From positions 1 to 50,409 of IMG/VR virus record IMGVR_UViG_3300029266_002412: a stretch of DNA of 50,409 nucleotides, one strand, 5' to 3'. The notes beneath the pieces are model-generated. The model ran no database searches. It was not told the DNA's origin and worked only from the letters and a program-made list of their open reading frames with translations. The stretch is from a virus. A program made the translations under genes and the position numbers. This document shows, piece after piece, positions 1,217 to 29,451 of this stretch. The first letter of the stretch is position 1; the number at the start of each line of letters is the position of its first letter.

Positions 1217-1461
1217 TAATTAACTCTTACTTTGAGTCCTTTTATTTCTGTAAGGAACTCTTCAACTGTCAATGTTTTACCTTTTTCAGTTTTTATTTTT
1301 ACATCAGGCAATATCTCTGGCTGCCTGTCTACCATTTTCATCAATGTTTTTAATCCACTACCTGCCCAGAAAACTCCAAAGCCTGTATTTTCACCTAGTA
1401 TGTTAGAATCAAAGTGTACATCTTTTTCACTATCACCTGGAAGCATTATGAAATATGTCAT
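1216..1461 (-). CDS. Small unknown protein, 81 aa
   Basis: This 81-residue protein begins MTYFIMLPGDSEKDVHFDSN and ends TEIKGLKVRVN. It has a glycine-rich central stretch (LGENTGFGVFWAGSGL) followed by a lysine-rich amphipathic C-terminal half. Similar short proteins with FWAGSGLKTL-like cores occur beside structural or sugar genes in marine T4-like phages, but I cannot name a family. Its start overlaps the stop of the dehydrogenase-like gene by four bases (ATGA), and its stop overlaps the next start, placing it in the same coupled transcript as the sugar cluster. Function unknown. Confidence 0.6.
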   Translation of the reverse strand: MTYFIMLPGDSEKDVHFDSNILGENTGFGVFWAGSGLKTLMKMVDRQPEILPDVKIKTEKGKTLTVEEFLTEIKGLKVRVN

Positions 1462-2195
1462 TTCGATTCTTCTTTGTTTGCGTATTCCATAATAAGATCA
1501 AGTGCTTTGCTTTCGAACTCCTTTTGAAGCAGCTCTGTGTTTGCTATAACGCAATGGCCGCCTATCCCATTTTCTGGTGGGTATAAATTAGGCCGTACAA
1601 CGTTTTGCATATCTAGTCCCATATAACCTATGTTATAAGAAAGAGTCCACTTATTAATAACATCAAAATCTATATTATATTTGTCACACATCTTTTTCAT
1701 TTCACCATGCCAAGCTATACAAAGACCGTAGTATGTAGTACTTGTTAGCTTTGCTAGCTCTGAAGAATCTGAGTTCTCTACAGGATAAAATATAATCTCT
1801 AAGCTTTCGTAGTGCTCTTTTGCAAGTGCTAAATCAACTGAATTGTTATAACCTATAAACTTAACAAACTTTTCTATCCCTTCTTTCAAGTTTGGATGTA
1901 TACCTCTTACAGGTGAGTGTACAACAGGCCTAGATATCTGCTTTGTTGTTCCTACAGGCACTGTTGAGTGAATTATTGTTAATTTTGGTAAATACAAGTC
2001 GATATAACTATTGACTGTACTTATGAAGTTTTCTCCATAAGGCAAACATATATCTAATATGTCTATCTTTCCATGTATTGTATTTACGTTTAGATCTCTT
2101 ATCATAGGCACAAGACCTTTTTCTTGATATACCTTTGCTAGTGAGGATCCTATCTCACCGTATCCTATTATTCCTACTCTTGTTTTATCTTCCAT
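1458..2195 (-). CDS. UDP-glucose/GDP-mannose dehydrogenase-like NAD(P)-binding protein
   Basis: The N terminus TRVGIIGYGEIGSSLAKVY is a classic GxGxxG Rossmann nucleotide-binding loop. A mid-chain IIHSTVPVGTTKQI motif is typical of nucleotide-sugar dehydrogenases and 6-phosphogluconate-dehydrogenase-like proteins, and a central helical segment (SSELAKLTSTTYYGLCIAW) matches their second domain. At 245 residues it is much shorter than UDP-glucose dehydrogenases (about 400+), and I see no convincing catalytic Cys in the usual place; the C-terminal GIGGHCVIANTELL looks like the GxGGxC signature shifted into this short form. It lies at the promoter-distal end of the ADP-heptose genes and overlaps hldE-C by 11 bases. 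It probably acts on a nucleotide sugar or small sugar acid in the cytoplasm, substrate unknown. Confidence 0.75.
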   Translation of the reverse strand: MEDKTRVGIIGYGEIGSSLAKVYQEKGLVPMIRDLNVNTIHGKIDILDICLPYGENFISTVNSYIDLYLPKLTIIHSTVPVGTTKQISRPVVHSPVRGIHPNLKEGIEKFVKFIGYNNSVDLALAKEHYESLEIIFYPVENSDSSELAKLTSTTYYGLCIAWHGEMKKMCDKYNIDFDVINKWTLSYNIGYMGLDMQNVVRPNLYPPENGIGGHCVIANTELLQKEFESKALDLIMEYANKEESK

Positions 2196-2571
2196 TTAAT
2201 ATCTCCGTTGTTGAATATCCTTCTATTTTTTCAAAAAATCTTACGTGTTGTGCATGAGCTTCACCTATAACTGTTTTGTTCTTCCAGTCGTCGCCTACGA
2301 TCAAAACGTGTGGTTTAACATGCTTTACAATGCTGTCTAAAGCATCTTCATCGTTGAAAACATATACTTTATCTATGTACTTTATAGATTTTAGCAATTC
2401 TACTCTATCTTCTAACTTGTTGAAAGGTCTATTGTCACCTTTATCTTTTTTAATTTTATCATCAGAATCTATACCTACGTATAATTCTGTACCTAAACTT
2501 TTTGCATATTTAAAAAGCTCTATATGTCCTCTGTGTAGTATATCAAAACAACCATTTGTCCAAACTATCAT
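2185..2571 (-). CDS. hldE: HldE C-terminal-type adenylyltransferase (heptose-1-phosphate nucleotidyltransferase)
   Basis: A 128-residue single-domain cytidylyltransferase-like protein. WTNGCFDILHRGHIELF at residues 4-20 contains the HxGH nucleotide-binding motif (HRGH), and GYSTTEILN near the C terminus is the family's second signature (usually xSTTxLI). Gly-Asp-Asp-Trp-Lys (GDDWK) sits where TagD/HldE enzymes carry their substrate loop. In HldE this domain transfers AMP to D-glycero-beta-D-manno-heptose 1-phosphate to give ADP-heptose. Here it is a separate gene immediately after the kinase (4-bp overlap), so bifunctional HldE is split in two. Glycerol-3-phosphate cytidylyltransferase is an alternative, but the kinase and epimerase neighbours favour heptose. 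Confidence 0.85.
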   Translation of the reverse strand: MIVWTNGCFDILHRGHIELFKYAKSLGTELYVGIDSDDKIKKDKGDNRPFNKLEDRVELLKSIKYIDKVYVFNDEDALDSIVKHVKPHVLIVGDDWKNKTVIGEAHAQHVRFFEKIEGYSTTEILNGR

Positions 2572-3290
2572 ATCGTAACCACTCCTCTTTTCTGTACAAC
2601 TTCAGAAGCGCATTTGTTTGCAAAATCTATTGAATTGCTTATAAGCTTTGTATCAACGTATTTATATACAAGACCTGCAAGAAAAGTATCACCTGCACCT
2701 GAAACATTGGAAACCTTTACAGGATCAGTTTCATATGTGCTGTCTCTATATGTTGCACCTCTAGATCCTTTTGTGACTATAACATTACTATGAGAATACT
2801 CTTCGTTAATAATCCATTCAGGTTCGTTTATTTTAATAAAGCTAATTTTCTCACACCAAGCACCTAGTTTCTTTTTTGTATCTAAAAATGTAGGACACTT
2901 ACATTCTTCTGCAATAATCTTAATCATTGATTTTGTTAAAAATCCTTTGTTATAATCGGATATTACAACTGCATCAAATTTATATTGTTTAAGATATTTT
3001 ATAAAATCAACTTCACACTCAGCTGCAGAATCGTTTTCATCGAATCTCATAATCATCTGGCCTGATTTCTCATCTATATATCTTGTCTTTTTTATTGGTG
3101 AGTGATTTGTTATTATATATGTTTCACAGCTTAATGACTTAAAGTTTTCAACAACATTAGCTGCCATGCCAGGATTCTCTGTCTCACTTACAGGATTTAA
3201 CACTGGTACTGGCGCCTCGGGACAGAGTCTGTTTATATCACAATAAATAAATTTATCAATACAGCTATCACCTACAACTAATATTCTCAT
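2568..3290 (-). CDS. hldE: HldE N-terminal-type heptose-7-phosphate kinase (PfkB/ribokinase family)
   Basis: The protein starts MRILVVGDSCIDKFIYCD, then CPEAPVPVLN and NPGMAANVVENF, matching HldE kinase (usually CPEAPVPV and GGAANVA). The C-terminal NVSGAGDTFLAGLVYKY is the PfkB signature 2 with its catalytic GAGD aspartate. It is 240 aa against about 310 for the HldE kinase domain, so compact but carrying both ends of the fold. Expected reaction: phosphorylation of D-glycero-D-manno-heptose 7-phosphate at O1. It overlaps the cupin gene and the adenylyltransferase by four bases each. No GmhA isomerase or GmhB phosphatase is seen in the window, so the host may supply those steps or they may lie elsewhere. 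Confidence 0.87.
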   Translation of the reverse strand: MRILVVGDSCIDKFIYCDINRLCPEAPVPVLNPVSETENPGMAANVVENFKSLSCETYIITNHSPIKKTRYIDEKSGQMIMRFDENDSAAECEVDFIKYLKQYKFDAVVISDYNKGFLTKSMIKIIAEECKCPTFLDTKKKLGAWCEKISFIKINEPEWIINEEYSHSNVIVTKGSRGATYRDSTYETDPVKVSNVSGAGDTFLAGLVYKYVDTKLISNSIDFANKCASEVVQKRGVVTI

Positions 3291-3649
3291 TGACTATCTC
3301 CTTTTCTAATTCTATAACTATCGCTATCAAAATGCTCAGTTGATACTTCAAATATTTCTGAATTATCTTCTAAAGCAATAAGCTGGTGTGGCTGTCCTCT
3401 TTCTATAGTTAAGCACGTACCTACTTCTATAATTCTTGAACACTCTCTTGCCTTTTCAGTATCAATCCATTTATATTCAAAGCTTCCTCTACCAACATAC
3501 CAAGATTCTTTTTTAATTACATGATAATGCATTGAAAACATATTTCCTTTTTTACTAAACCTTAAAAGCTTTCCGCAATATTCTTCATCGTTATGAATCC
3601 ATATTTCTTCACCCCAAGCTTTTTCTACTATTTTAGGTTTTACTATCAT
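3287..3649 (-). CDS. Mannose-6-phosphate isomerase-type cupin
   Basis: A 120-residue cupin. KAWGEEIWIHNDEEYCGKLL at the N terminus is the KPWGxE-like signature of type II mannose-6-phosphate isomerase/cupin domains. SMHYHVIKKESWYVGRG provides the HxH...E metal-binding set, and ERGQPHQLIAL supplies the late histidine of the second cupin box. In its family such single-domain cupins isomerise or bind phosphosugars, and also occur as the C-terminal domain of mannose-1-phosphate guanylyltransferases. Lying between a GT9 transferase and the heptose kinase, it probably acts on a sugar phosphate feeding the heptose or GDP-mannose route. The exact substrate is not readable. Confidence 0.8.
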   Translation of the reverse strand: MIVKPKIVEKAWGEEIWIHNDEEYCGKLLRFSKKGNMFSMHYHVIKKESWYVGRGSFEYKWIDTEKARECSRIIEVGTCLTIERGQPHQLIALEDNSEIFEVSTEHFDSDSYRIRKGDSQ

Positions 3650-4431
3650 AATAATATCTCCATTCTTTTTTTAACTTCGTTAACTTCAGGATTCCAAGAT
3701 GGTGATGTTATGTATTCCATTTCAGTACCATGAGGATTCCAATCTTTTTTATATCTGTATGTATTGTTTTCGACTCCCCAAGCTATGTGCTTGAGTCCGC
3801 AAAGAGATGCCAAATGCATAGGGCCTGATGAAGGGCCTATGATCAAATCGGCACTTGACATATAATCACATAGCTCTGATAGTGGAGTATCTCTAAGATC
3901 TACTGTTCCTTCTATGTGTTCAGATGCTGCCTTTAATCCTATACTAGCAAATTTATATTCATCAAAGCTATCTATAATTTCTTTAAACTTTGTATAATCC
4001 CAGTTTCTTATATCAGTACCTACCTTATCTGTATGTCTTGCGTGTATGAGAATGTATTTTTCTTTTGTAGGTTTTCCGTATTTTATAAAACTTTGCTCCA
4101 ATCTAGGGTTCCATACAGATCTGTCTTGTTCTATTGAAGGTGTATAGTGTGTTAAACAATGATTAGGTGGTATATATACACTGCCTTTTTCAGGCATGGG
4201 ATAATTTTCTATCTTAGATCTATTAAAAAATGAGTCAGGTTGATATCCGCTAGGTGAGTAAGGAATATACTCATCGCAAAAGTCTTCATAAAGAAACTTA
4301 TTTATTTCTCTTCCTGATACTATAACTTTTTTAAAATTATTTTTTTCAACGTATCTTCTTAATACTCCTTGCCAGCAAAATAATTCCCAACCAAATTCTC
4401 CAACCCAAGGTCCTGCAAATAGTGTTTTCAT
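3646..4431 (-). CDS. GT9-like (heptosyltransferase-type) glycosyltransferase
   Basis: A 261-residue GT-B-like protein. The N terminus (MKTLFAGPWVGEFGWELF) suits the acceptor domain, and the C-terminal half has ILIHARHTDK followed by SADLIIGPSSGPMHLASLCG. The latter is the GT9 donor-binding signature (family form: D-x-G-x-x-H-L-A), here with SSGPMHLA. GT9 enzymes transfer heptose from ADP-heptose. The gene is directly upstream of a cupin and HldE-type genes and follows the HldD-type epimerase, so ADP-heptose is the likely donor. A promoter-like element precedes its ATG by only a few bases, marking the start of a transcription unit for the heptose genes. The acceptor is unknown. Confidence 0.8.
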   Translation of the reverse strand: MKTLFAGPWVGEFGWELFCWQGVLRRYVEKNNFKKVIVSGREINKFLYEDFCDEYIPYSPSGYQPDSFFNRSKIENYPMPEKGSVYIPPNHCLTHYTPSIEQDRSVWNPRLEQSFIKYGKPTKEKYILIHARHTDKVGTDIRNWDYTKFKEIIDSFDEYKFASIGLKAASEHIEGTVDLRDTPLSELCDYMSSADLIIGPSSGPMHLASLCGLKHIAWGVENNTYRYKKDWNPHGTEMEYITSPSWNPEVNEVKKRMEILL

Positions 4432-4435
4432 ATAT

Positions 4436-4462
4436 CTAATATAACAAATTTTTATGAATTAA
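4436..4462 (-). promoter_or_regulatory. Shared phage promoter-like element (site J)
   Basis: Minus strand reads TTAATTCATAAAAATTTG followed by TTATATTAG, ending a few bases before the ATG of the GT9-like gene at 4431. It matches the consensus TATGTCA-N8-TTTGTTATATTAG seen before ten other genes. The site overlaps the end of the upstream epimerase gene. Confidence 0.55.
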
Positions 4463-5234
4463 GTAAATATTTTTTGTATTTTTTTGTGCCTATTTTTACA
4501 TCACAAAGCGGCTTCCAGCCTGGCATAAACTTTTTATTATCTGCTTGTGTAAAATACTGATACCAACTTGGTATTTTATCTTTGCTGTGGTATTCGTAAG
4601 GAATGTCCATGCCTTCTACTAGGCTTTGAAATGAAGCAGCTTTACCAGTACCAACATCAAAAACCCCTCTTTCTAGCGTTGCTGCATGTATGTTTGCTCT
4701 CACTACATCATCAACAAAAATAAAGTCTCTTTTTATATCACCAGGGAATAACTTAAACTTCTTTGCTTTATAAGCTTGGTATGCGATTGATGCCATCTTG
4801 CCTTTGTTTTCTTCACCAGGCCCATAGACATTGAAATATCTAAGAGCTACAAACTTTTTACAAGCTTTCAATCCATATTCTTCTGCCAATAACTTTGACC
4901 AACCATATATGTTAGTAGGTATACCGTTTCCTGTTCCATAATTTGCTGCTGAGCTTGAGTAAACAACTTTTACATCATATTTTCTTGCTAAATCAAATAT
5001 AATCTTACTTGAATTATAATTACACTCTAACATCTCGTTACAATCTTGAAGTTCTGTATCGGATATTGCTCCTACGTGAAATATAACGTCACACTGCTTT
5101 ATTATAGCTTCTATATCTTTATAGTTTACATCATCGTTCCTTTCTATACAGTTAACGTGATATCCTTTTGATTTCAATGCTTTTAATAAGTTTGAACCTA
5201 TAAATCCTTTATGCCCTGTTAGTAATGCTCTCAT
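4452..5234 (-). CDS. hldD: ADP-heptose 6-epimerase-like NAD-dependent sugar epimerase
   Basis: I use the ATG at 5234 (MRALLTGHKGFIGSNLL), which overlaps the preceding stop as ATGA and places the GxxGFIG Rossmann loop at the very N terminus; an in-frame ATG at 5255 would add seven residues. An extended-SDR YxxxK appears as YGWSKLLAEEYG. ALRYFNVYGPGEENKGKMAS, RDFIFVDDVV and the late FTQADNKK closely follow HldD (family form NVYGPxExHKGxMAS ... YTQAD). HldD converts ADP-D-glycero- to ADP-L-glycero-D-manno-heptose. At 260 aa it is shorter than E. coli HldD (310). The adjacent HldE-type genes and GT9 transferase support the assignment. Confidence 0.85.
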   Translation of the reverse strand: MRALLTGHKGFIGSNLLKALKSKGYHVNCIERNDDVNYKDIEAIIKQCDVIFHVGAISDTELQDCNEMLECNYNSSKIIFDLARKYDVKVVYSSSAANYGTGNGIPTNIYGWSKLLAEEYGLKACKKFVALRYFNVYGPGEENKGKMASIAYQAYKAKKFKLFPGDIKRDFIFVDDVVRANIHAATLERGVFDVGTGKAASFQSLVEGMDIPYEYHSKDKIPSWYQYFTQADNKKFMPGWKPLCDVKIGTKKYKKYLLNS

Positions 5235-5932
5235 ATTCCTTTTATTATCTTCCATCGTTTTTTATCCAATATCATTTGCTCTAATTTTGATTTAACACCA
5301 CCTTCGAAAATTCCAGCCCCACCGTAGTGTATTGCATGAGACATAAATCTGTTAGCACTGCTGTTCCATTCTTCTGAAAACATTGTCATATGATTCCACT
5401 TATAAGATAGTTCGTGTACATCATATCCGTACTTGTTTATTAAATAGCCCATGTGAACATCATCATAACCAAATCCTGTCCAGTATTCTCCATTTATCGT
5501 TTCATATATGTTACTGTGACACTTTGACGTAAGAAAAAAAGCTGAATCCATATAGCCTTCACTCCAACCTACGTTTCCCCACTTTGATTGAGCTTGCTGC
5601 ATGCAATGCTGTCTAGCTAACTTCCTTGTGCCTTTATCTTCATAGACAGTTGCAATGCTATCATAAGGCACTATGTTAAAGATATTAGGACAGTCTGGTG
5701 CAAGTAAAACATCTGAATCTATATGAAGTATTCTATCGTATTTTTCATGTAATTCTTTATGTTTAAATATTCTATAATGCCATTTTCCGTCACCATCATT
5801 ACAGTCTGATTTGTGACTCATCACTTTAAATTCTGCTCCAACCTTTTTAGCGTATTCCTGTATTATTGGATGAGTAATATCTGTCCAATCTTTTATGCCT
5901 TCATCGGCACGAGTCGTAATTAGTAGTTTCAT
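5231..5932 (-). CDS. GT-A-fold glycosyltransferase, GT8-like
   Basis: A 233-residue protein with LHEKYDRILHIDSDVLLAPD near residue 70: the DSD is the DxD motif that binds the divalent metal and nucleotide sugar in GT-A enzymes. Upstream lies KWHYRIFKHKELHEKY, and a later GFGYDDVHMGYLINKYGY resembles the acceptor-side segment of GT8- or galactosyltransferase-like proteins. No signal peptide or membrane segment is present, so a cytoplasmic enzyme is expected. It is coupled by four-base overlaps to both the epimerase and the Gfo/Idh/MocA gene. Donor and acceptor cannot be read from sequence. Confidence 0.75.
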   Translation of the reverse strand: MKLLITTRADEGIKDWTDITHPIIQEYAKKVGAEFKVMSHKSDCNDGDGKWHYRIFKHKELHEKYDRILHIDSDVLLAPDCPNIFNIVPYDSIATVYEDKGTRKLARQHCMQQAQSKWGNVGWSEGYMDSAFFLTSKCHSNIYETINGEYWTGFGYDDVHMGYLINKYGYDVHELSYKWNHMTMFSEEWNSSANRFMSHAIHYGGAGIFEGGVKSKLEQMILDKKRWKIIKGI

Positions 5933-6861
5933 TTTATTATTCTGTCCATAAACTTTAGTCGTGATATTGTATTTAATTCTTTTTTGTAAAGATCTCTTGT
6001 GTTAGCTGATATGAAAAATCTAATCATACTTTCAAATTGATCTGATTTATCTATCTCAAAATACTCTGTACTTCCATTCTGTATGATGTGTATTGGATTA
6101 GTGCAGTCAGGTGTTCTAGAAAATACTCTTTCTGCTTTCATTGTTTCGTATTCACTTGATATTGTTATTTCATTTCTGTATGCCTGGCCGAAGCCAAAAT
6201 TAATAACTGCAGTAGAATCAGGATAAGCCATCATTATAGTACCTTTTTCTACAACTTCGTCTTCTATAAAATTATAATAGCAATCTTCGTAGCTTTTACC
6301 TAGTATTCTTTGTACAAAACTTAAAGGATATATAAGTGAATCGTGTATAGAGCCACCGCCTAAAGCTTTTTTGTATCTAATATCGTCTTTGTCTTCAAAA
6401 TAAGGAAAGTTAAATGTTGCATCTACATATTTTACACTGCCCATGCTTTCCAACAAAATGTCTATTTTCTTTTGTACAGGATGGAATTCGTACATCAAAG
6501 CCTCCATACATTTTAAATTTCTATTTTCTGCAATGTTAAATAGCTCTATTGCATCAGGTGCATTTGTTGTAAATGTCTTTTCCATAAGCAGATGCTTGCC
6601 GGAAAGTAGCACTTTCTTTCCCCATTCGTAATGTAAGCCTGGTGGCAATGAAACGTATATCATATCAACGTCACTTGCTAAAAGCTCTCCATAAGTATAT
6701 GGGTTTGTATGATATTCAAACCCCCAGCCAATTGCTTTGTTTATATCTCTAGAAGCAACACCAGATAGTTCAACTCCTTCTATTTTTTTTATTGCAGGTA
6801 TAACGCACCTTTTAGCTATTGACGAACAACCTAATATTCCTATTTTCATTTTTTTATACAT
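5929..6861 (-). CDS. Gfo/Idh/MocA-family NAD(P)-dependent oxidoreductase
   Basis: MKIGILGCSSIAKRCVIPAI is the N-terminal GxGxxA-like Rossmann loop; VYVSLPPGLHYEWGKK and HLLMEKTFTTN give the conserved EKP-type catalytic lysine region (here EKT). ALMYEFHPV is the family's YxxRxxP-like segment. Two starts are possible: ATG at 6861 (MYKKMKIG), used here, or ATG at 6849 directly before KIGILG. In deoxysugar pathways this family includes the 3-ketoreductases that act after NDP-hexose 2,3-dehydratase. A dehydratase of that type is encoded immediately upstream, so reduction of an unstable 3,4-diketo sugar to a 2,6-dideoxy sugar is the most coherent role, by inference. Confidence 0.83.
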   Translation of the reverse strand: MYKKMKIGILGCSSIAKRCVIPAIKKIEGVELSGVASRDINKAIGWGFEYHTNPYTYGELLASDVDMIYVSLPPGLHYEWGKKVLLSGKHLLMEKTFTTNAPDAIELFNIAENRNLKCMEALMYEFHPVQKKIDILLESMGSVKYVDATFNFPYFEDKDDIRYKKALGGGSIHDSLIYPLSFVQRILGKSYEDCYYNFIEDEVVEKGTIMMAYPDSTAVINFGFGQAYRNEITISSEYETMKAERVFSRTPDCTNPIHIIQNGSTEYFEIDKSDQFESMIRFFISANTRDLYKKELNTISRLKFMDRIIK

Positions 6862-7609
6862 GAGCTATAATGCTTCTTAAACAATGACCAACCCAAGCAT
6901 CTTGCTTGCAGCATTCTTTTATTTGATGTAAACTCATCCAGATAAAGTTTTCATTAACAATATCTACTTCTTGTGTTTCGTCAACCTCAACTATCATGTT
7001 TAGATTTCTTTTGTTATACAACCTTCCGCCGTCTTCAGCCAACCATTTCTTATAATGAACCTTGCCTACTTCATCGCCTTGAAAAAAGTTAAGGTAGTTA
7101 GGCACATTGCCTAAATGAGCTGCCTTTATGTTGCTGAATGTTGCCTGTAAAGTAGGGCTAATCTGTACCATGTTAGGATTGCCAGGTTCGCATTTAGCTT
7201 CAACCAAATAATGAGGTACACCATCAAACCTTTTTCTTAGCACTCCTAATATGCCGCCGTCCCAACCTGTCTGCTTTATTATAGGCTGGTCCCATCCACC
7301 TTTACATTCTCTTATATCAGTTTCGACTCTTAAGCCTAATATAGAGAAAAACTCTCCACTTTCATGGTCTATGCTTCCTTCGTCAATATTCCATTTTCTA
7401 CATTCACTTAATGGGATTTCTCTAACTGTCATCTCCTTCTTGTTAACGACACCTTGATACCACCATTGTATTTCTTGGAATGTATGCAATGTAGACCAGT
7501 CTTTTAATCCTTCAAAGTTAAATTCAAGTTCATCTGAATAGCATTCTATTCCTAAGTTTTTAACGCTGTTTTTATATTCTAAAAACTTTTCTTTATAATC
7601 GTTTTTCAT
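6854..7609 (-). CDS. NDP-hexose 2,3-dehydratase-like protein, half-length
   Basis: A 251-residue protein resembling one repeat of NDP-hexose 2,3-dehydratases (EvaA, SpnO, TylX3 type). Visible signatures are GGWDQPIIKQ, VPHYLVEAKCEPGNPN and VQISPTLQATFSNIKA; the EPGN and SPTxQAT motifs are the most diagnostic. Family members are usually about 450-480 aa with two similar halves, so this is a single-unit version that may dimerise to rebuild the site; that is inference. The reaction removes water across C2-C3 of a 4-keto-6-deoxyhexose. The neighbouring Gfo/Idh/MocA, DegT and 4,6-dehydratase genes match the expected pathway. It overlaps the next gene by eight bases. Confidence 0.83.
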   Translation of the reverse strand: MKNDYKEKFLEYKNSVKNLGIECYSDELEFNFEGLKDWSTLHTFQEIQWWYQGVVNKKEMTVREIPLSECRKWNIDEGSIDHESGEFFSILGLRVETDIRECKGGWDQPIIKQTGWDGGILGVLRKRFDGVPHYLVEAKCEPGNPNMVQISPTLQATFSNIKAAHLGNVPNYLNFFQGDEVGKVHYKKWLAEDGGRLYNKRNLNMIVEVDETQEVDIVNENFIWMSLHQIKECCKQDAWVGHCLRSIIAHV

Positions 7610-8520
7610 AGTTTTTTTGCTTCGCTTATAACGTCATTAATATCTATTTTATTACACCCAGCAGGATTTCTTTCTACAAACATAACTTTAGAATTTTTAT
7701 TTATAGGTGTTACTGAAGAAGGATTTTTATCGTGGCCATACATCCAATACGTTTCTAGTGTTATACCTGGATGTTGGTATGCTCCCATGATCCAAACAGG
7801 GCCTGTGCTTGCAGCAATATAAAATTCTGATGCTAGTGCTGCTTTTATCTGTTGAAAGAAAGACATATATGTAAGTTTTTTATAATTTTTTGAATCATGC
7901 AATCTAGGTTCGCTGTCCATACCATAATGAAATACTGTATAGCCGTCAGCTATTAATTTTGTTATCAACGAATTCCACCATTTTTCTGAAGGACATCTGC
8001 CAACTTCTTTACCGGCTCCTGTAAAAGGCCAGATTGCAATATTTTTATTAAAATAATCTAAGTTTATATTATTATTTTTACTATATGTACCTTGAATCTG
8101 ATTTTCAAATCCAACATCGAACCATTTTTCTAACTTGGGCTTCATTTCTTCGTCTGATAGATAGTCTTTCATGTCATATATTCCGTGCATATGTGCAGTT
8201 TCTTCTACAAGATTGTAATTATTAAACCAATCTTTGCTAGTATGCTTATCATTTGCAGCATCGTCTACTACTATATCACATTGAGATATTAATTTCTTAT
8301 CATAGTCACCTAGCTGTTCACTACTCCATCCATCAGTTATTTTTATTCTATCAATTAAGGGATGGTTGAAAAATATAGGCGCAATGAATGAAACTTTTTT
8401 CTCTATAAGCCAGTATTTATAACTACCTGGGTACTTTCTTTCAAAATATAATAACGTAGGGAGTGCACAGATTGAATCGCCAACTAAGCCTCCCATACAA
8501 GTCCAAATTTTTTTATTCAC
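7606..8520 (-). CDS. GT9-like glycosyltransferase (heptosyltransferase family)
   Basis: A 304-residue protein beginning KIWTCMGGLVGDSICALPTLLYF, the GxxGDxxxxLP N-terminal motif of ADP-heptose:LPS heptosyltransferases. The C-terminal domain has IAIWPFTGAGKEVGRCP, typical of GT9 donor-binding strands, then ALASEFYIAASTGPVWIMGA, equivalent to the family's ...DSGxxHLA... loop with the usual His replaced by Trp. This may shift donor or reduce activity. It is one of two GT9-like genes in the cluster and overlaps its neighbours by 4-8 bases. ADP-heptose is the expected donor, but other activated sugars made by this cluster are possible. Confidence 0.75.
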   Translation of the reverse strand: MNKKIWTCMGGLVGDSICALPTLLYFERKYPGSYKYWLIEKKVSFIAPIFFNHPLIDRIKITDGWSSEQLGDYDKKLISQCDIVVDDAANDKHTSKDWFNNYNLVEETAHMHGIYDMKDYLSDEEMKPKLEKWFDVGFENQIQGTYSKNNNINLDYFNKNIAIWPFTGAGKEVGRCPSEKWWNSLITKLIADGYTVFHYGMDSEPRLHDSKNYKKLTYMSFFQQIKAALASEFYIAASTGPVWIMGAYQHPGITLETYWMYGHDKNPSSVTPINKNSKVMFVERNPAGCNKIDINDVISEAKKL

Positions 8521-9151
8521 GGTTTACAGTCTCACAATCTTTAAACAAATCAAAGCTTCTTAAATCAGGATAATAAGGTTCGTTTTCAAATGAATCCTCA
8601 TTAGGTATATCTTTCTTAAATCTAGGGTAATTCGACATAAGAGTTAAACCTCTTGCTGCTTGCTCAGGTGTCATATATGCATTCCAACCTATAGTCTTTA
8701 TATTATCTTCGTGCATATATACTTCACCTCTTCCTTCATATCTTGCTCGCTTTGCAAAGTCTACAAGATTTTGATCATCAGTAATAATCATGCCTCCTTT
8801 GCCTATAGGTAAGTGCTTTTTAATATGAAAAGAAAGACACATTATAGAATCTTTTATATACATGTTTGATGTAAGTCTTTTTGCAGCGTCATAAAGCGGA
8901 TAAGGTTCAAGCTGGTATATACCTTCCCATTTATAATCTCTAAACTTTACAGACCCACCTGCGTGGATTATAGATTGCGGTACTGATAGGTAAGTTCGTG
9001 GTGGTATTGTTACCTCCTTTACTTTTAAATACTTTGCAGCAATCATTATCGCGTCAGTACAGCTGTCTGTAGCTATAGCATATTTAGAACCACAGTAATC
9101 TGCAATGTTTTCTTCAAACATTCTTACTATTTTATACGGGTTGTGTATCAT
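8513..9151 (-). CDS. DegT/DnrJ/EryC1/StrS-type sugar aminotransferase, short form
   Basis: A 212-residue protein with the N-terminal PLP domain of sugar aminotransferases: SKYAIATDSCTDAIMIAAKY (usual form ...GTdAL...), LYDAAKRLTS with the PLP-binding Asp-Ala, and SFHIKKHLPIGKGGMIITDD with the internal Schiff-base lysine and following GGxxxT. YEGRGEVY and YMTPEQAARG continue the fold. Full-length members are 370-400 aa, so the C-terminal small domain is missing or replaced by about 35 acidic residues. Compact forms like this are common in phages but may be inactive alone. Together with the 4,6-dehydratase and 2,3-dehydratase, an amino or dideoxy sugar product is suggested. Confidence 0.8.
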   Translation of the reverse strand: MIHNPYKIVRMFEENIADYCGSKYAIATDSCTDAIMIAAKYLKVKEVTIPPRTYLSVPQSIIHAGGSVKFRDYKWEGIYQLEPYPLYDAAKRLTSNMYIKDSIMCLSFHIKKHLPIGKGGMIITDDQNLVDFAKRARYEGRGEVYMHEDNIKTIGWNAYMTPEQAARGLTLMSNYPRFKKDIPNEDSFENEPYYPDLRSFDLFKDCETVNRE

Positions 9152-9362
9152 TATTTTCTTCCGGGAATACTTCTATACATAAAACATTTTCATCGTTAAC
9201 CATTATCATAGTTCCATCATCACATTCAAATTTAGAAAACTGGCCTTGTTTAAGACTGTCAGTTCTTATACCATGAAAAGTTCTTTTAACGCCTCCTACA
9301 AAATGTATTATCTGAGTTACGTACTTGCCTTTTTCTATTATTGTTGACTTTAAATTTATCAT
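9132..9362 (-). CDS. Small unknown protein, 76 aa
   Basis: A 76-residue beta-rich protein, MINLKSTIIEKGKYVTQIIH through CDDGTMIMVNDENVLCIEVF, ending EENNDTQPV. Alternating hydrophobic strands and the late VNDENVLCIEVFPE look like a small beta barrel or sandwich; no catalytic motif is visible. It lies between the 4,6-dehydratase and the aminotransferase, overlapping the former by four bases and the latter by 20, so it is translated with the sugar pathway. Many T4-like marine phages carry a similar-sized conserved hypothetical near structural genes, but I cannot assign a family. Confidence 0.65.
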   Translation of the reverse strand: MINLKSTIIEKGKYVTQIIHFVGGVKRTFHGIRTDSLKQGQFSKFECDDGTMIMVNDENVLCIEVFPEENNDTQPV

Positions 9363-10330
9363 GATAATTTTTCAACCCAGTAGTTTAACAAATCATTCAT
9401 AGTTTTTTCTATAGATATTTTAGGTTCCCAACCTGTATGTTCTTTTAGTAAGCTTGAATCTCCTACCTGTACTTGTATATCTATTTCTCTATAGTAAGGC
9501 TTGTATATTTCTTGCTTTATATCTTCATAAGGTATACCCGACGCTTTAATTAAGCAGTCTGTATAGTATTGCATTTTCTGGATTTCATCACCACAAACAT
9601 TATAGACTTTACCATTACTTTTTTCTGTCATCATCAAAAGATAATATGCATTAACGCAATCTCTTACATCTATAACAACTCTTTCAGTTTCAAGATTACC
9701 TATCTTCAAAACCTTGTCTTGTAAACCTAATTTCATTTTTGCAATCTGGTAAGCATCAGAGCTAATACTAAATATCTTACCTCGTCTTTCACCTGTATGG
9801 CTGAATGCTCTTGTTACAAATCCATTCAACTTCTTGTTTGCAAATCTTTCTTGAAGGTATATATCAATAGCAGCTTTAGAAGCACCATAAGGATTTGCTG
9901 GCAATATCTTGCCATCTGTATGTAATTTGGTGCCGTCACACGTATCACCATACACTTCCGATGTACTACAGAACATTAGCTTTGTTTCTGTGTTCTCTAA
10001 CAATGTTATTATATTCATAGTAGCTGTAACATTATCATTCCAAGTCATTATCGGGTCTGTAAAGCTTGTTGGTGGGTGACTTTGAGCAGCTAAGTGAAAT
10101 ACACCATCAAAGTTTTGTGAAAGCACTTTTTCTACTCCCATATAATCTTTTAAATCTGCATAGTGGAATTGTATTTTCTCTATTTCTTCAACAGACATAA
10201 TATCTACCAAATCCATTTCTCTACCATTAGCAGTTCTTATAATACCATGAACCTCGTGCCCTTCTTTTAACAATAGCTTTGCTAAATGAGGACCTGCAAA
10301 ACCTGTTATTCCTGTTACTAAAAATTTCAT
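9359..10330 (-). CDS. gmd: GDP-mannose 4,6-dehydratase/4-reductase-like SDR enzyme
   Basis: A 323-residue extended SDR: MKFLVTGITGFAGPHLAKLL is the NAD(P)-binding GxxGxxG, FHLAAQSHPPTSF the AAQSHV-like loop of GMD, MFCSTSEVYGD and NPYGASKAAIDIY the S...YxxxK triad, and FVTRAFSHTGERRG the family's RxFNHxGPRRG substrate loop. The length fits GMD/RMD enzymes. Expected reaction: GDP-D-mannose to GDP-4-keto-6-deoxymannose, or the subsequent 4-reduction; sequence alone does not separate the two. A good Shine-Dalgarno (AAGGAGA) and a promoter-like element lie upstream. This would be the entry step for the deoxysugar genes downstream on the same transcript. Confidence 0.85.
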   Translation of the reverse strand: MKFLVTGITGFAGPHLAKLLLKEGHEVHGIIRTANGREMDLVDIMSVEEIEKIQFHYADLKDYMGVEKVLSQNFDGVFHLAAQSHPPTSFTDPIMTWNDNVTATMNIITLLENTETKLMFCSTSEVYGDTCDGTKLHTDGKILPANPYGASKAAIDIYLQERFANKKLNGFVTRAFSHTGERRGKIFSISSDAYQIAKMKLGLQDKVLKIGNLETERVVIDVRDCVNAYYLLMMTEKSNGKVYNVCGDEIQKMQYYTDCLIKASGIPYEDIKQEIYKPYYREIDIQVQVGDSSLLKEHTGWEPKISIEKTMNDLLNYWVEKLS

Positions 10331-10358
10331 ATTCTTTCTCCTTTTTAATTTGTATATT

Positions 10359-10384
10359 ATAATATAAGCATTTTTCTTGACATA
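10359..10384 (-). promoter_or_regulatory. Shared phage promoter-like element (site H)
   Basis: Minus strand reads TTATGTCAAGAAAAATG then CTTATATTAT, about 30 bases before the GMD-like start at 10330. It matches TATGTCA-N8-TTTGTTATATTAG except at TTTG (ATGC), and it occupies the only gap in this part of the cluster. Confidence 0.5.
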
Positions 10385-10390
10385 AAAAAA

Positions 10391-10996
10391 TTATACTGTA
10401 TCTATGTACTTAATTTTTGATTTTTTATTTTTTAGTTCGCTGAAGTATTTCTCTCCAACCCACCAATCTTCCCAAGGTTCCCATATACTATTACCTTTGT
10501 TGTCATATTTTTCTGTACCATCTGTAAGTACGTCTTCAAACAACATCTTATATCCTGAAGCTTCAAGTATTTTTATAGAATCTTTCTTTCTTGCATCTGT
10601 AACTTCTGAATCTGCATATGAATCGTGTTCAAATGTCATAAAATCAAATGTATAGCCATTAGAGATTAAGAGCTCTAGACAAGGTATCGAAGCATCATCA
10701 ACATCAAGCGATATATAGTCGAAGTGTTTTACATTTGATTTAGCATCTAAAATTTCTATAAAACTCTGTACAGTAACGTCTGCTTTTATGCATTCGTTTC
10801 GTCTATCTGATTTGTTAAATAGATCTATCCATCTCTGTTGAAAATCTACTGATATACCTTTCCACCCTAACCACTCTAATGCTGCTGTGTTATTTCCTTC
10901 AAAAGGGTGGTGGCTACCTAGATCTAAATAACATCCTCTGCCTCCAATTAGTTTATGTGCAAACTTATCTTGAAATTCTTTAGCGTAATATTGCAT
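10391..10996 (-). CDS. FkbM-like SAM-dependent methyltransferase
   Basis: A 201-residue protein with GRGCYLDLGSHHPFEGNNTA, the glycine-rich SAM-binding motif I of FkbM-family methyltransferases (family form: ...vDiGAhxGxxS...), then GWKGISVDFQQ (acidic end of strand beta-2) and DYISLDVDDASIPCLELL, the conserved catalytic/SAM-proximal segment (usually ...D.E..E...L). FkbM enzymes O-methylate sugars or polyketides. Located among glycosyltransferases, it is likely to cap or decorate the glycan this cluster makes. It overlaps the upstream glycosyltransferase by 17 bases. Acceptor unknown. Confidence 0.8.
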   Translation of the reverse strand: MQYYAKEFQDKFAHKLIGGRGCYLDLGSHHPFEGNNTAALEWLGWKGISVDFQQRWIDLFNKSDRRNECIKADVTVQSFIEILDAKSNVKHFDYISLDVDDASIPCLELLISNGYTFDFMTFEHDSYADSEVTDARKKDSIKILEASGYKMLFEDVLTDGTEKYDNKGNSIWEPWEDWWVGEKYFSELKNKKSKIKYIDTV

Positions 10997-18874: not shown

Positions 18875-20810
<1,936 letters not shown>

Positions 20811-28081: not shown

Positions 28082-28523
28082 AGCCTCCTTCTCCTCTACT
28101 TGTTACATTAAGCTCATCAACTTCTTTAAATTCAAAGTTAGGTACAGGCATGACAATAATCTGACCTACTCTGTCACCTGGTGAGTATCTTTCTATATCT
28201 GTAGAACAACCTGATTTTTTAAATCTTAATTTTACAGGGCCTCTATATCCCGAATCAACTACACCAACGCAGTTAGCTAGCATCAAATCTGTTTTAGATA
28301 CAGAACTACGTGGGAATAAATAACCTACGTATCCTGCAGGTATTTCCATAGCAAGGCCTGTGTCGTACTCCATGTATCTAATTTCTTGAGATGTGAAACC
28401 TTCAGTTGGAGCTCCATACTTTACTGTCATTGATACTGCTGTTAAATCCATACCTGCATCGCCTAGTTTTGCGTATGTCGGTATAGTTGCTGTTGGGTCT
28501 AATTTTTTAATGTTAATTTTCAT
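28062..28523 (-). CDS. dut: Trimeric dUTPase
   Basis: A 153-residue dUTP pyrophosphatase with all five family motifs: GDAGMDLTAV (motif 1, near residue 21), YLFPRSSVSKTD (2), NCVGVVDSGYRGPVKLRF (3, with catalytic Asp and uracil-binding Tyr), YSPGDRVGQIIVMP (4) and the C-terminal GEGGFGSTG (5). The length and motif order are normal. It removes dUTP and supplies dUMP to thymidylate synthesis. It is encoded directly after the MazG/HAD fusion. Presence of an intact dUTPase argues against a uracil-containing genome. Confidence 0.95.
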   Translation of the reverse strand: MKINIKKLDPTATIPTYAKLGDAGMDLTAVSMTVKYGAPTEGFTSQEIRYMEYDTGLAMEIPAGYVGYLFPRSSVSKTDLMLANCVGVVDSGYRGPVKLRFKKSGCSTDIERYSPGDRVGQIIVMPVPNFEFKEVDELNVTSRGEGGFGSTGN

Positions 28524-29451
28524 TGTGAACTACCTCTATTATATTACCGTTAATTATTTTAATTCCTTCGTTTAGTTTTCTATCAAGTGTTTTCTGTGAG
28601 TATATACCTAGATTCTTTCTAAGATATACCTTGAATCCACTATCGTGTAACTTGTTTGCATTTTGAATATCATCATCTATACAGAAAGCTACCTGATCTG
28701 TATTAAAATTATTGATTATATACTTTTCTTTCTCCTCATCGAATACGATTGCATCATAGCATATGTCATTATCTTTAAGCCACTTTAAAGTATCTGAATA
28801 TATTCTAAAGTATTTTTTGTAAGGTCTTGCAGTTAACAACACAACACTATATTTTTCACATGTTCGTTTCATAAAAGATTCTACACCTGATAATACTTTT
28901 AGCTTAGCTTTTACTCCACATGTTCTGTATTCTGCTTTTATTCTGTACTGCTCTTTCTTATCTACTTTTTCTTTAAACTGCTTAAGCGAATCGTATCCTG
29001 CCCATTCAAGGAAACCACCAGGCCAGTCAGCAAGTACACCATCAATATCTATAAATGCTATTTTTTTATCTGACGCCTTGATAGAATCCATAACATCTTC
29101 CTGTTTAAATTTAGCTTCGACAACGTTTGACTTGTCAATAAACTTTTCATATAATTGATCTACAGAAAAACCGTTTAGTTGTATAATGCCAAACAAGTAT
29201 TTTAGCACATCAACACATTCTTCTAATACATTGTCATTAACATCTTCTGTATTTTTTGATGTGTGCATCTTCCAATCTATCTCATCAAGTACTTCATATA
29301 CCTCTTTAGACAGTGCTAGAACGTACTCTTTGTTCCATTTAATTCTTAGTTCTTTGTTATTACGGACTTCATTAACGGATAATCCTTGTTTTTCAAAAAA
29401 CTTTTCTGTGAATTCTTCTTGTATCTTAAATATTTCTTTTAATTTATCCAT
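28513..29451 (-). CDS. MazG/dimeric-dUTPase-like domain fused to HAD 5'-nucleotidase-like domain
   Basis: A 312-residue two-domain protein. Residues 1-115 are all-helical and contain NKEYVLALSKEVYEVLDEIDW and NVLEECVDVLKYLFGIIQLNG; the E-x3-E...E-E-x-x-D pattern is the metal-binding signature of MazG/dimeric dUTPases. Residues 130-290 are a HAD domain: KIAFIDIDGVLADWPGGFLE (catalytic DxD), KYSVVLLTARPYKKY (motif II Thr) and IVFDEEKEKYI...FCIDDDIQNA (motif IV DD). The first domain would remove pyrophosphate from a dNTP, the second a phosphate from a dNMP. This points to nucleotide-pool remodelling such as removing a normal base nucleotide. It overlaps dUTPase by 11 bases. Confidence 0.83.
   Translation of the reverse strand: MDKLKEIFKIQEEFTEKFFEKQGLSVNEVRNNKELRIKWNKEYVLALSKEVYEVLDEIDWKMHTSKNTEDVNDNVLEECVDVLKYLFGIIQLNGFSVDQLYEKFIDKSNVVEAKFKQEDVMDSIKASDKKIAFIDIDGVLADWPGGFLEWAGYDSLKQFKEKVDKKEQYRIKAEYRTCGVKAKLKVLSGVESFMKRTCEKYSVVLLTARPYKKYFRIYSDTLKWLKDNDICYDAIVFDEEKEKYIINNFNTDQVAFCIDDDIQNANKLHDSGFKVYLRKNLGIYSQKTLDRKLNEGIKIINGNIIEVVHNEN

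Follow-up and report, generated by a model that had tools for sequence, protein, structure and literature searches.

A heptose-type gene run on the minus strand

The virus record IMGVR_UViG_3300029266_002412, treated here over its full 50,409 bases (hereafter the window), carries nearly every long open reading frame (ORF) on the minus strand, and on that strand lies a run of genes at 2185-5234 whose predicted products resemble enzymes of nucleotide-heptose biosynthesis. Read along the minus strand from 5234 to 2185, the run comprises an HldD-like ADP-heptose 6-epimerase (4452-5234; 260 aa from the ATG at 5234, the ORF possibly starting at 5255; TIGR02197, E 2.0e-51; PDB 1eq2, 2.8e-31), a weakly GT9-like (heptosyltransferase-like) protein (3646-4431; 261 aa; PF01075, 2.5e-4, 20.9 bits, under the gathering score of 22), a small cupin (3287-3649; PHROG 7851, 6.1e-35; WbuC, 7.6e-6; PF07883, 5.6e-5, below cut-off), a compact HldA-like PfkB kinase (2568-3290; 240 aa; TIGR02198, 7.2e-39; PHROG 8133), and a cytidylyltransferase-like protein of the HldC (heptose 1-phosphate nucleotidyltransferase) type (2185-2571; 128 aa; TIGR02199, 8.3e-35; PHROG 7878, 7.8e-44). 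The initial annotation had placed the kinase, adenylyltransferase, and HldD-like genes at these same coordinates and had named a cupin in the run, and the family matches bear out all four; it had also described the run as overlapping, which holds at four junctions where neighbors share 4 bases (2568-2571, 3287-3290, 3646-3649, and 5231-5234) but not at 4432-4451, where 20 bases separate the GT9-like gene from the epimerase gene. The best NCBIfam families of the three Hld-like genes are rfaE_dom_II, rfaE_dom_I, and heptose_epim, with matches far beyond chance, and the presence of an ADP-heptose-type set of kinase, nucleotidyltransferase, and epimerase in a phage is thereby upheld.

HldD enzymes employ a catalytic set of a Ser, a Tyr-x3-Lys, and a second catalytic lysine. 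In the epimerase of the window, which is alignable with 1eq2 (260 versus 310 aa), the SS and Y-x3-K motifs and the lysine of RYFNVYGP-E--KG are present, and S100/S101, Y116, K120, and K150 are invariant in all eight aligned sequences. The nucleotidyltransferase likewise retains the HxGH (LHRGH) and STT (YSTT) motifs in alignment; the STTR5 hallmark, as given in excerpted descriptions of it, was rejected for this protein because Y, not R, precedes STT. The GT9-like protein, 73% identical to its counterpart in contig L001, gave no match in a PDB search up to E 1, and of the GT9-type transferases originally proposed it is left as the single, weak candidate; 7606-8520 has neither a Pfam match nor BLASTP similarity to 3646-4431. 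Contig L001 is the nearest relative of the window (blastn 74.9% over 4,975 columns; kinase 77% identical), and across six genes compared between the two, dN (0.075-0.206) lies so far under dS (0.91-1.85) that the module genes are evidently under purifying selection.

The cupin corresponds to cyanophage T4-GC 307, annotated as a cysteine dioxygenase; it lies near the kinase in 33 of the 38 loci having the nucleotidyltransferase and possibly tailors the sugar. In cyanophage Bellamy (L182:7540-9513), the cassette cupin stands beside a GHMP kinase and an NTP_transferase, a pairing that resembles the GDP-heptose route. Because Bellamy combines the same cupin with GDP-heptose-like enzymes, this arrangement suggests that the cupin's substrate is a sugar shared by the Bellamy-type route and the cassette.

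A clade of compact kinases

Kinase domains of this type span 240-269 aa in 101 compact members, versus 296-315 aa in 59 full-length HldA/HldE proteins (a comparison made without L170, L124, and L135). In alignment, the compact kinases are about 60 residues shorter, the largest missing block being 23 residues after window residue 64, and 36 positions are conserved across compact and full-length kinases alike, including R-P-P-P, K-R, R-D, SDY-KG, D-K, and GAGD, all of which the window kinase keeps. In the GG motif, the second glycine is found in 100% of the full-length kinases, whereas 90% or more of the compact ones carry M there, the window kinase (GM) among them. An AlphaFold model of the window kinase reached a mean pLDDT of 95.5, and the best of 1000 realigned chains was HldA of Burkholderia cenocepacia (4e84; Z 26.3, rmsd 2.2, 235 residues aligned), the best non-HldA chain scoring Z 23.8. 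Given this confidence and HldA as the best structural match, the kinase is, as modeled, a complete but trimmed HldA-type fold. That the module might instead be a decaying acquisition without function is highly improbable: although the kinase and the epimerase are both shorter than the bacterial enzymes (240 versus 296-315 aa and 260 versus 310 aa in 1eq2), purifying selection, intact motifs, and a complete, high-confidence kinase fold argue against decay.

In a quick tree of 50 + 50 rows drawn from the 101 compact and 59 full-length kinases, one branch parts the two sets (SH-aLRT 96). A recent split of HldE was considered and rejected, as the compact kinases form one side of this branch rather than appearing as HldE halves. 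The initial annotation had singled out the division of HldE into two genes, here two ORFs overlapping by 4 bases instead of one bifunctional ORF; yet 30 of 64 non-compact prokaryote loci are fused in one ORF, so unfused kinases are ordinary and the emphasis on a split falls away.

At least 590 relatives of the kinase were found in virus contigs, of which 80 were taken further, and de-duplication by similarity reduced 114 kinases to 102. Genome contigs returned 79 kinase loci, 15 of them compact (L101-L115) and 64 non-compact. The compact clade, frequent among virus contigs but seldom seen in prokaryote records, where several of L101-L115 carry a phage-like cassette, is likely virus-borne. A two-part thiamine diphosphate (TPP) enzyme resembling E1/transketolase was also seen near some compact kinases (L073:3395-4597, L010:6975-8183, and L011:7847-8992); this ORF cluster occurs in 13 of the 64 compact loci that have no nucleotidyltransferase nearby and is annotated in S-SM2 and P-TIM68.

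The cyanophage cassette and its small HAD protein

Among 50,697 phage records, the kinase occurs in 31, all cyanophage- or marine-virus-named. At nine named cyanophage loci, the nucleotidyltransferase, cupin, and a small HAD family are present in 9 of 9, and an HldD-like gene is strong (>100 bits) in seven and weak in two (L014 and L017). As the same cassette is annotated in cyanophages and, in the excerpted text of a genome announcement, listed with heptose-related lipopolysaccharide genes (PMC7378029), phage heptose modules are already a known kind.

The HAD member of the cassette, a protein of about 110 aa, carries the annotation phosphoheptose isomerase, but an identity as GmhA was rejected: SIS_2 was found in 0 of 18 phage records (nine of which are the named cyanophage genomes), versus 9 of 14 control genomes. 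Its invariant residues, which include D-x-D-x-T early in the protein, T-(A)-R in the middle, and K and D toward the end, follow the HAD pattern. The commonest NCBIfam match was the EcbF/BcbF capsule phosphatase model (11 of 12 and 22 of 25 members), although the two members with scores shown both fall below its cut-off. An AlphaFold-type model of the L009 copy (pLDDT 91.7) lay closest to 1xpj (Z 13.2) and 9iqw (Z 13.0), the latter with rmsd 1.9 over 95 aligned residues, 30% identity, and a profile E of 1.6e-24; by its PDB title, 9iqw is the D-arabinose 1,5-diphosphate phosphatase AfhF encoded by phage HY126. GmhB structures matched well below these two (3l8h, Z 8.7; 2gmw, Z 7.7). Judged by its fold, then, the protein is predicted to be a HAD phosphatase, related in fold to GmhB, and not an isomerase. 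The family occurs at L012:9719-10063 and in L003, L009-L018, L060, L063, L099, and others, T4-like phage records included, and tblastn with the L009 copy detected it in 387 of 50,697 phage records; in 30 contigs searched (28 of the loci with no nucleotidyltransferase nearby, plus L001 and L066), matches were strong in three and weak (E 1e-6 to 1e-8) in five.

A phosphatase for a bisphosphate sugar, acting between kinase and transferase, fits the need of the pathway, and the small HAD may be the missing viral heptose bisphosphate phosphatase, a candidate assignment beside which a pentose bisphosphate substrate is also possible. The HAD lies within 3.5 kb of 29 of 38 compact kinases that have the nucleotidyltransferase, versus 1 of 64 without it (Fisher p 1.8e-16, which is overstated because the sequences are related). 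One ORF (L063, 6684-7454) encodes the nucleotidyltransferase followed by the HAD, and another (L115, 9172-9966) the HAD followed by a stretch that resembles a cytidylyltransferase by eye. It is conceivable, if short of probable, that viruses have a nucleotide-heptose pathway of their own, built from a virus-borne minimal HldA-type kinase, an HldC-type transferase, and the capless HAD of about 110 aa as a counterpart of GmhB, from which the lineage of the window would have dropped the phosphatase and L021 also the transferase, the host filling in. Should the small HAD be a heptose 1,7-bisphosphate phosphatase, the label phosphoheptose isomerase in phage records, used likewise in the excerpted text of PMC9238414 and PMC7378029, would need correcting; viruses would then encode every nucleotide-heptose step after the isomerase, answering a gap noted in a commentary on Tang et al. 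(2024), whose excerpted text describes the phosphatase as absent in viruses (PMC11461863). A literature search on the mislabel turned up no publication, which does not show it to be unpublished.

The kinship with AfhF raises an unlikely alternative, namely that the sugar phosphate activated by the kinase and nucleotidyltransferase is a different one, such as D-arabinose 5-phosphate, as in RB69-like phages, which produce activated arabinose to glycosylate DNA or other targets; arabinosylated DNA is described for RB69 in the portion of PMC6024577 available. Activation of arabinose and of heptose follows one scheme of isomerase, kinase, phosphatase, and nucleotidyltransferase, yet at the HX01 and Acj9 loci the kinase and nucleotidyltransferase profiles of the cassette match nothing up to E 10, the HAD alone being common to both. 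There its neighbors are an arabinose 5-phosphate isomerase and a protein of 561 aa, and HX01 has a SIS protein and, as its copy of the 561-aa protein, an NTP_transferase. Because the cassette profiles find no match in HX01 and Acj9, the known arabinose module uses other enzymes and has only the HAD in common with the cassette. The cassette HAD is missing from the window, and a pentose would leave an HldD-type C6 epimerase without purpose. As for parts of an RB69-like module within the window, neither the HAD nor SIS_2 was detected, PF01380 and NTP_transferase not having been searched window-wide.

Genomic surroundings, possible host supply, and comparison with known systems

A UDP-glucose/GDP-mannose dehydrogenase-like gene (1458-2195, minus strand; 245 aa; PF00984, 2.2e-7) overlaps the nucleotidyltransferase gene and is a neighbor conserved in L001 and L021 (blastn). 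On the other side, a GT8-like glycosyltransferase gene (5231-5932, minus strand; PF01501, 8.9e-6) adjoins that of the epimerase. A deoxysugar-like island spans 5231-10996, with a Gfo/Idh oxidoreductase, a 2,3-dehydratase, a short DegT aminotransferase (212 aa), and a GMD-like dehydratase. The dehydratase (6854-7609; PF03559, 8.8e-63) is a single-module NDP-hexose 2,3-dehydratase, EvaA (4j7g) carrying two such modules; tblastn found relatives in 0 of 50,697 phage records, and a pattern scan of virus contigs, a limited search, found none. Since these genes lie directly upstream and are transcribed in the same direction, one may ask whether the Hld-like genes contribute, along with the 2,3-dehydratase, Gfo/Idh, DegT, and GMD-like neighbors, to a mixed deoxysugar glycan, the epimerase having been repurposed. 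This appears distinctly unlikely, as L021 keeps its heptose genes (without the nucleotidyltransferase) while most of the stretch matching 5235-10993 is replaced (blastn), so that the heptose and deoxysugar sets are separable.

The earlier statement that GmhA and GmhB are missing from the window stands: PF13580 (SIS_2, for GmhA) and the GmhB-type TIGR01656 returned nothing in the record, which may be a fragment (its completeness is not stated), such that absence from the record is not absence from the virus, and the two steps that would complete an ADP-heptose pathway are to be read as lacking in that limited sense. The small HAD was found neither in the window nor in the L001 (52.8 kb) and L021 (86 kb) contigs. 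At 28513-29451, a dUTPase/MazG-like part is joined to an NT5C-like HAD domain, and nothing links the latter to the heptose pathway. Because the window is without the HAD, GmhA, and GmhB, the upstream reactions would have to be supplied by the host or by phage DNA that the record does not cover.

A T9SS sorting domain is a trait of Bacteroidota, and L001 encodes at 7425-10880 a repeat protein of 1151 aa that bears such a domain, of type A (TIGR04183, 1.3e-11), and is perhaps secreted by host machinery during infection. The GroEL (18875-20515; PHROG 5725, 1.8e-158; about half identical to cellular GroEL) and helicase of the window have their nearest matches in a mixture of phages, Flavobacterium phages being among the best-ranked. 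A Bacteroidota host is therefore inferred with moderate confidence. In 118 genomes from the phylum to which G010 belongs (G010, titled Winogradskyella, is the source genome of L101), HldC-type TIGR02199 matched 79, with 68 over cut-off, and gmhA TIGR00441 matched 104, with 14 over cut-off, roughly 77 reaching E 1e-45 or better, and many weak; as such matches occur in many of the genomes, host supply of heptose 7-phosphate is plausible, though not universal. The initial remark that ADP-heptose is an innate-immune signal in animals has no bearing on the window.

We regard it as reasonably probable that the run represents the lower half of a nucleotide-heptose pathway, borne by a phage probably of Bacteroidota and feeding phage glycosyltransferases, with substrate and destination presumed; three independent enzymes of one pathway within one gene run support this reading. 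In the mechanism proposed, host GmhA would supply heptose 7-phosphate, and the compact kinase, assigned by family and fold, would phosphorylate D-glycero-D-manno-heptose 7-phosphate at C1. The 7-phosphate could then be removed by host GmhB or by a small HAD of the kind known in related phages but not in the window. The HldC-like enzyme (2185-2571) would, to judge from its family, attach the nucleotide, the HldD-like epimerase (4452-5234), to judge from family and residues, would make the L,D form, and the cupin would possibly tailor the sugar before phage glycosyltransferases place it on a host surface glycan or on the virion.

Several observations weigh against this assignment. The kinase (133.8 bits), nucleotidyltransferase (119.7), and epimerase (175.1) score below the TIGR02198 equivalog-domain cut-off (345) and the TIGR02199 (181.5) and TIGR02197 (274.6) equivalog cut-offs, respectively, each family still being the best for its protein. 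An HldC-like gene is missing within 3.5 kb of 64 of the 102 de-duplicated compact kinases, and 21 of 28 such loci searched contig-wide (in searches that also took in L001 and L066) have none, these contigs being fragments; the close relative L021 keeps kinase, cupin, and HldD, with no nucleotidyltransferase in its 86-kb contig. The kinase is thus not tied to HldC, and because HldC is often missing, L021 is without the transferase, and equivalog cut-offs are missed, this family of kinases may serve several functions. Further, the related phage HAD acts, by the title of 9iqw, on arabinose bisphosphate, and the host assignment leans mainly on one relative.

Compared with E. coli HldE, the window likewise encodes both predicted activities, but in two genes and with a kinase of another clade. 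The likeness to the unfused bacterial pathway of HldA, HldC, and HldD extends to fold, signature residues, and expected reaction order, whereas the kinase differs from bacterial HldA in being about 60 residues shorter, in having GM for GG, and in its sub-equivalog score, and the record differs in having neither GmhA nor GmhB; the compact clade would mark how far an HldA-type kinase can be reduced in size. The RB69/HX01-type arabinose module with its AfhF-like HAD is similar in that sugar activation is phage-encoded and its HAD is related to that of the cyanophage cassette, but it uses other kinase and nucleotidyltransferase families plus a SIS isomerase. The cyanophage cassette T4-GC 304-308 (P-SSM2, S-SSM7, S-CAM1, S-CAM3, P-TIM68, S-SM2, and others) shares with the window the nucleotidyltransferase, compact kinase (35-47% identical), cupin, and HldD-like epimerase, that is, four of five families, the small HAD (GC 306) being the one missing, and the window has an extra GT9-like gene between cupin and epimerase. 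Unlike the T4-like cyanophages, moreover, the phage of the window has a DnaE-type polymerase, the relatives of which do not fall among T4-like phages; the window adds a phage outside the group of T4-like cyanophages, probably of Bacteroidota, that keeps part of the pathway only.

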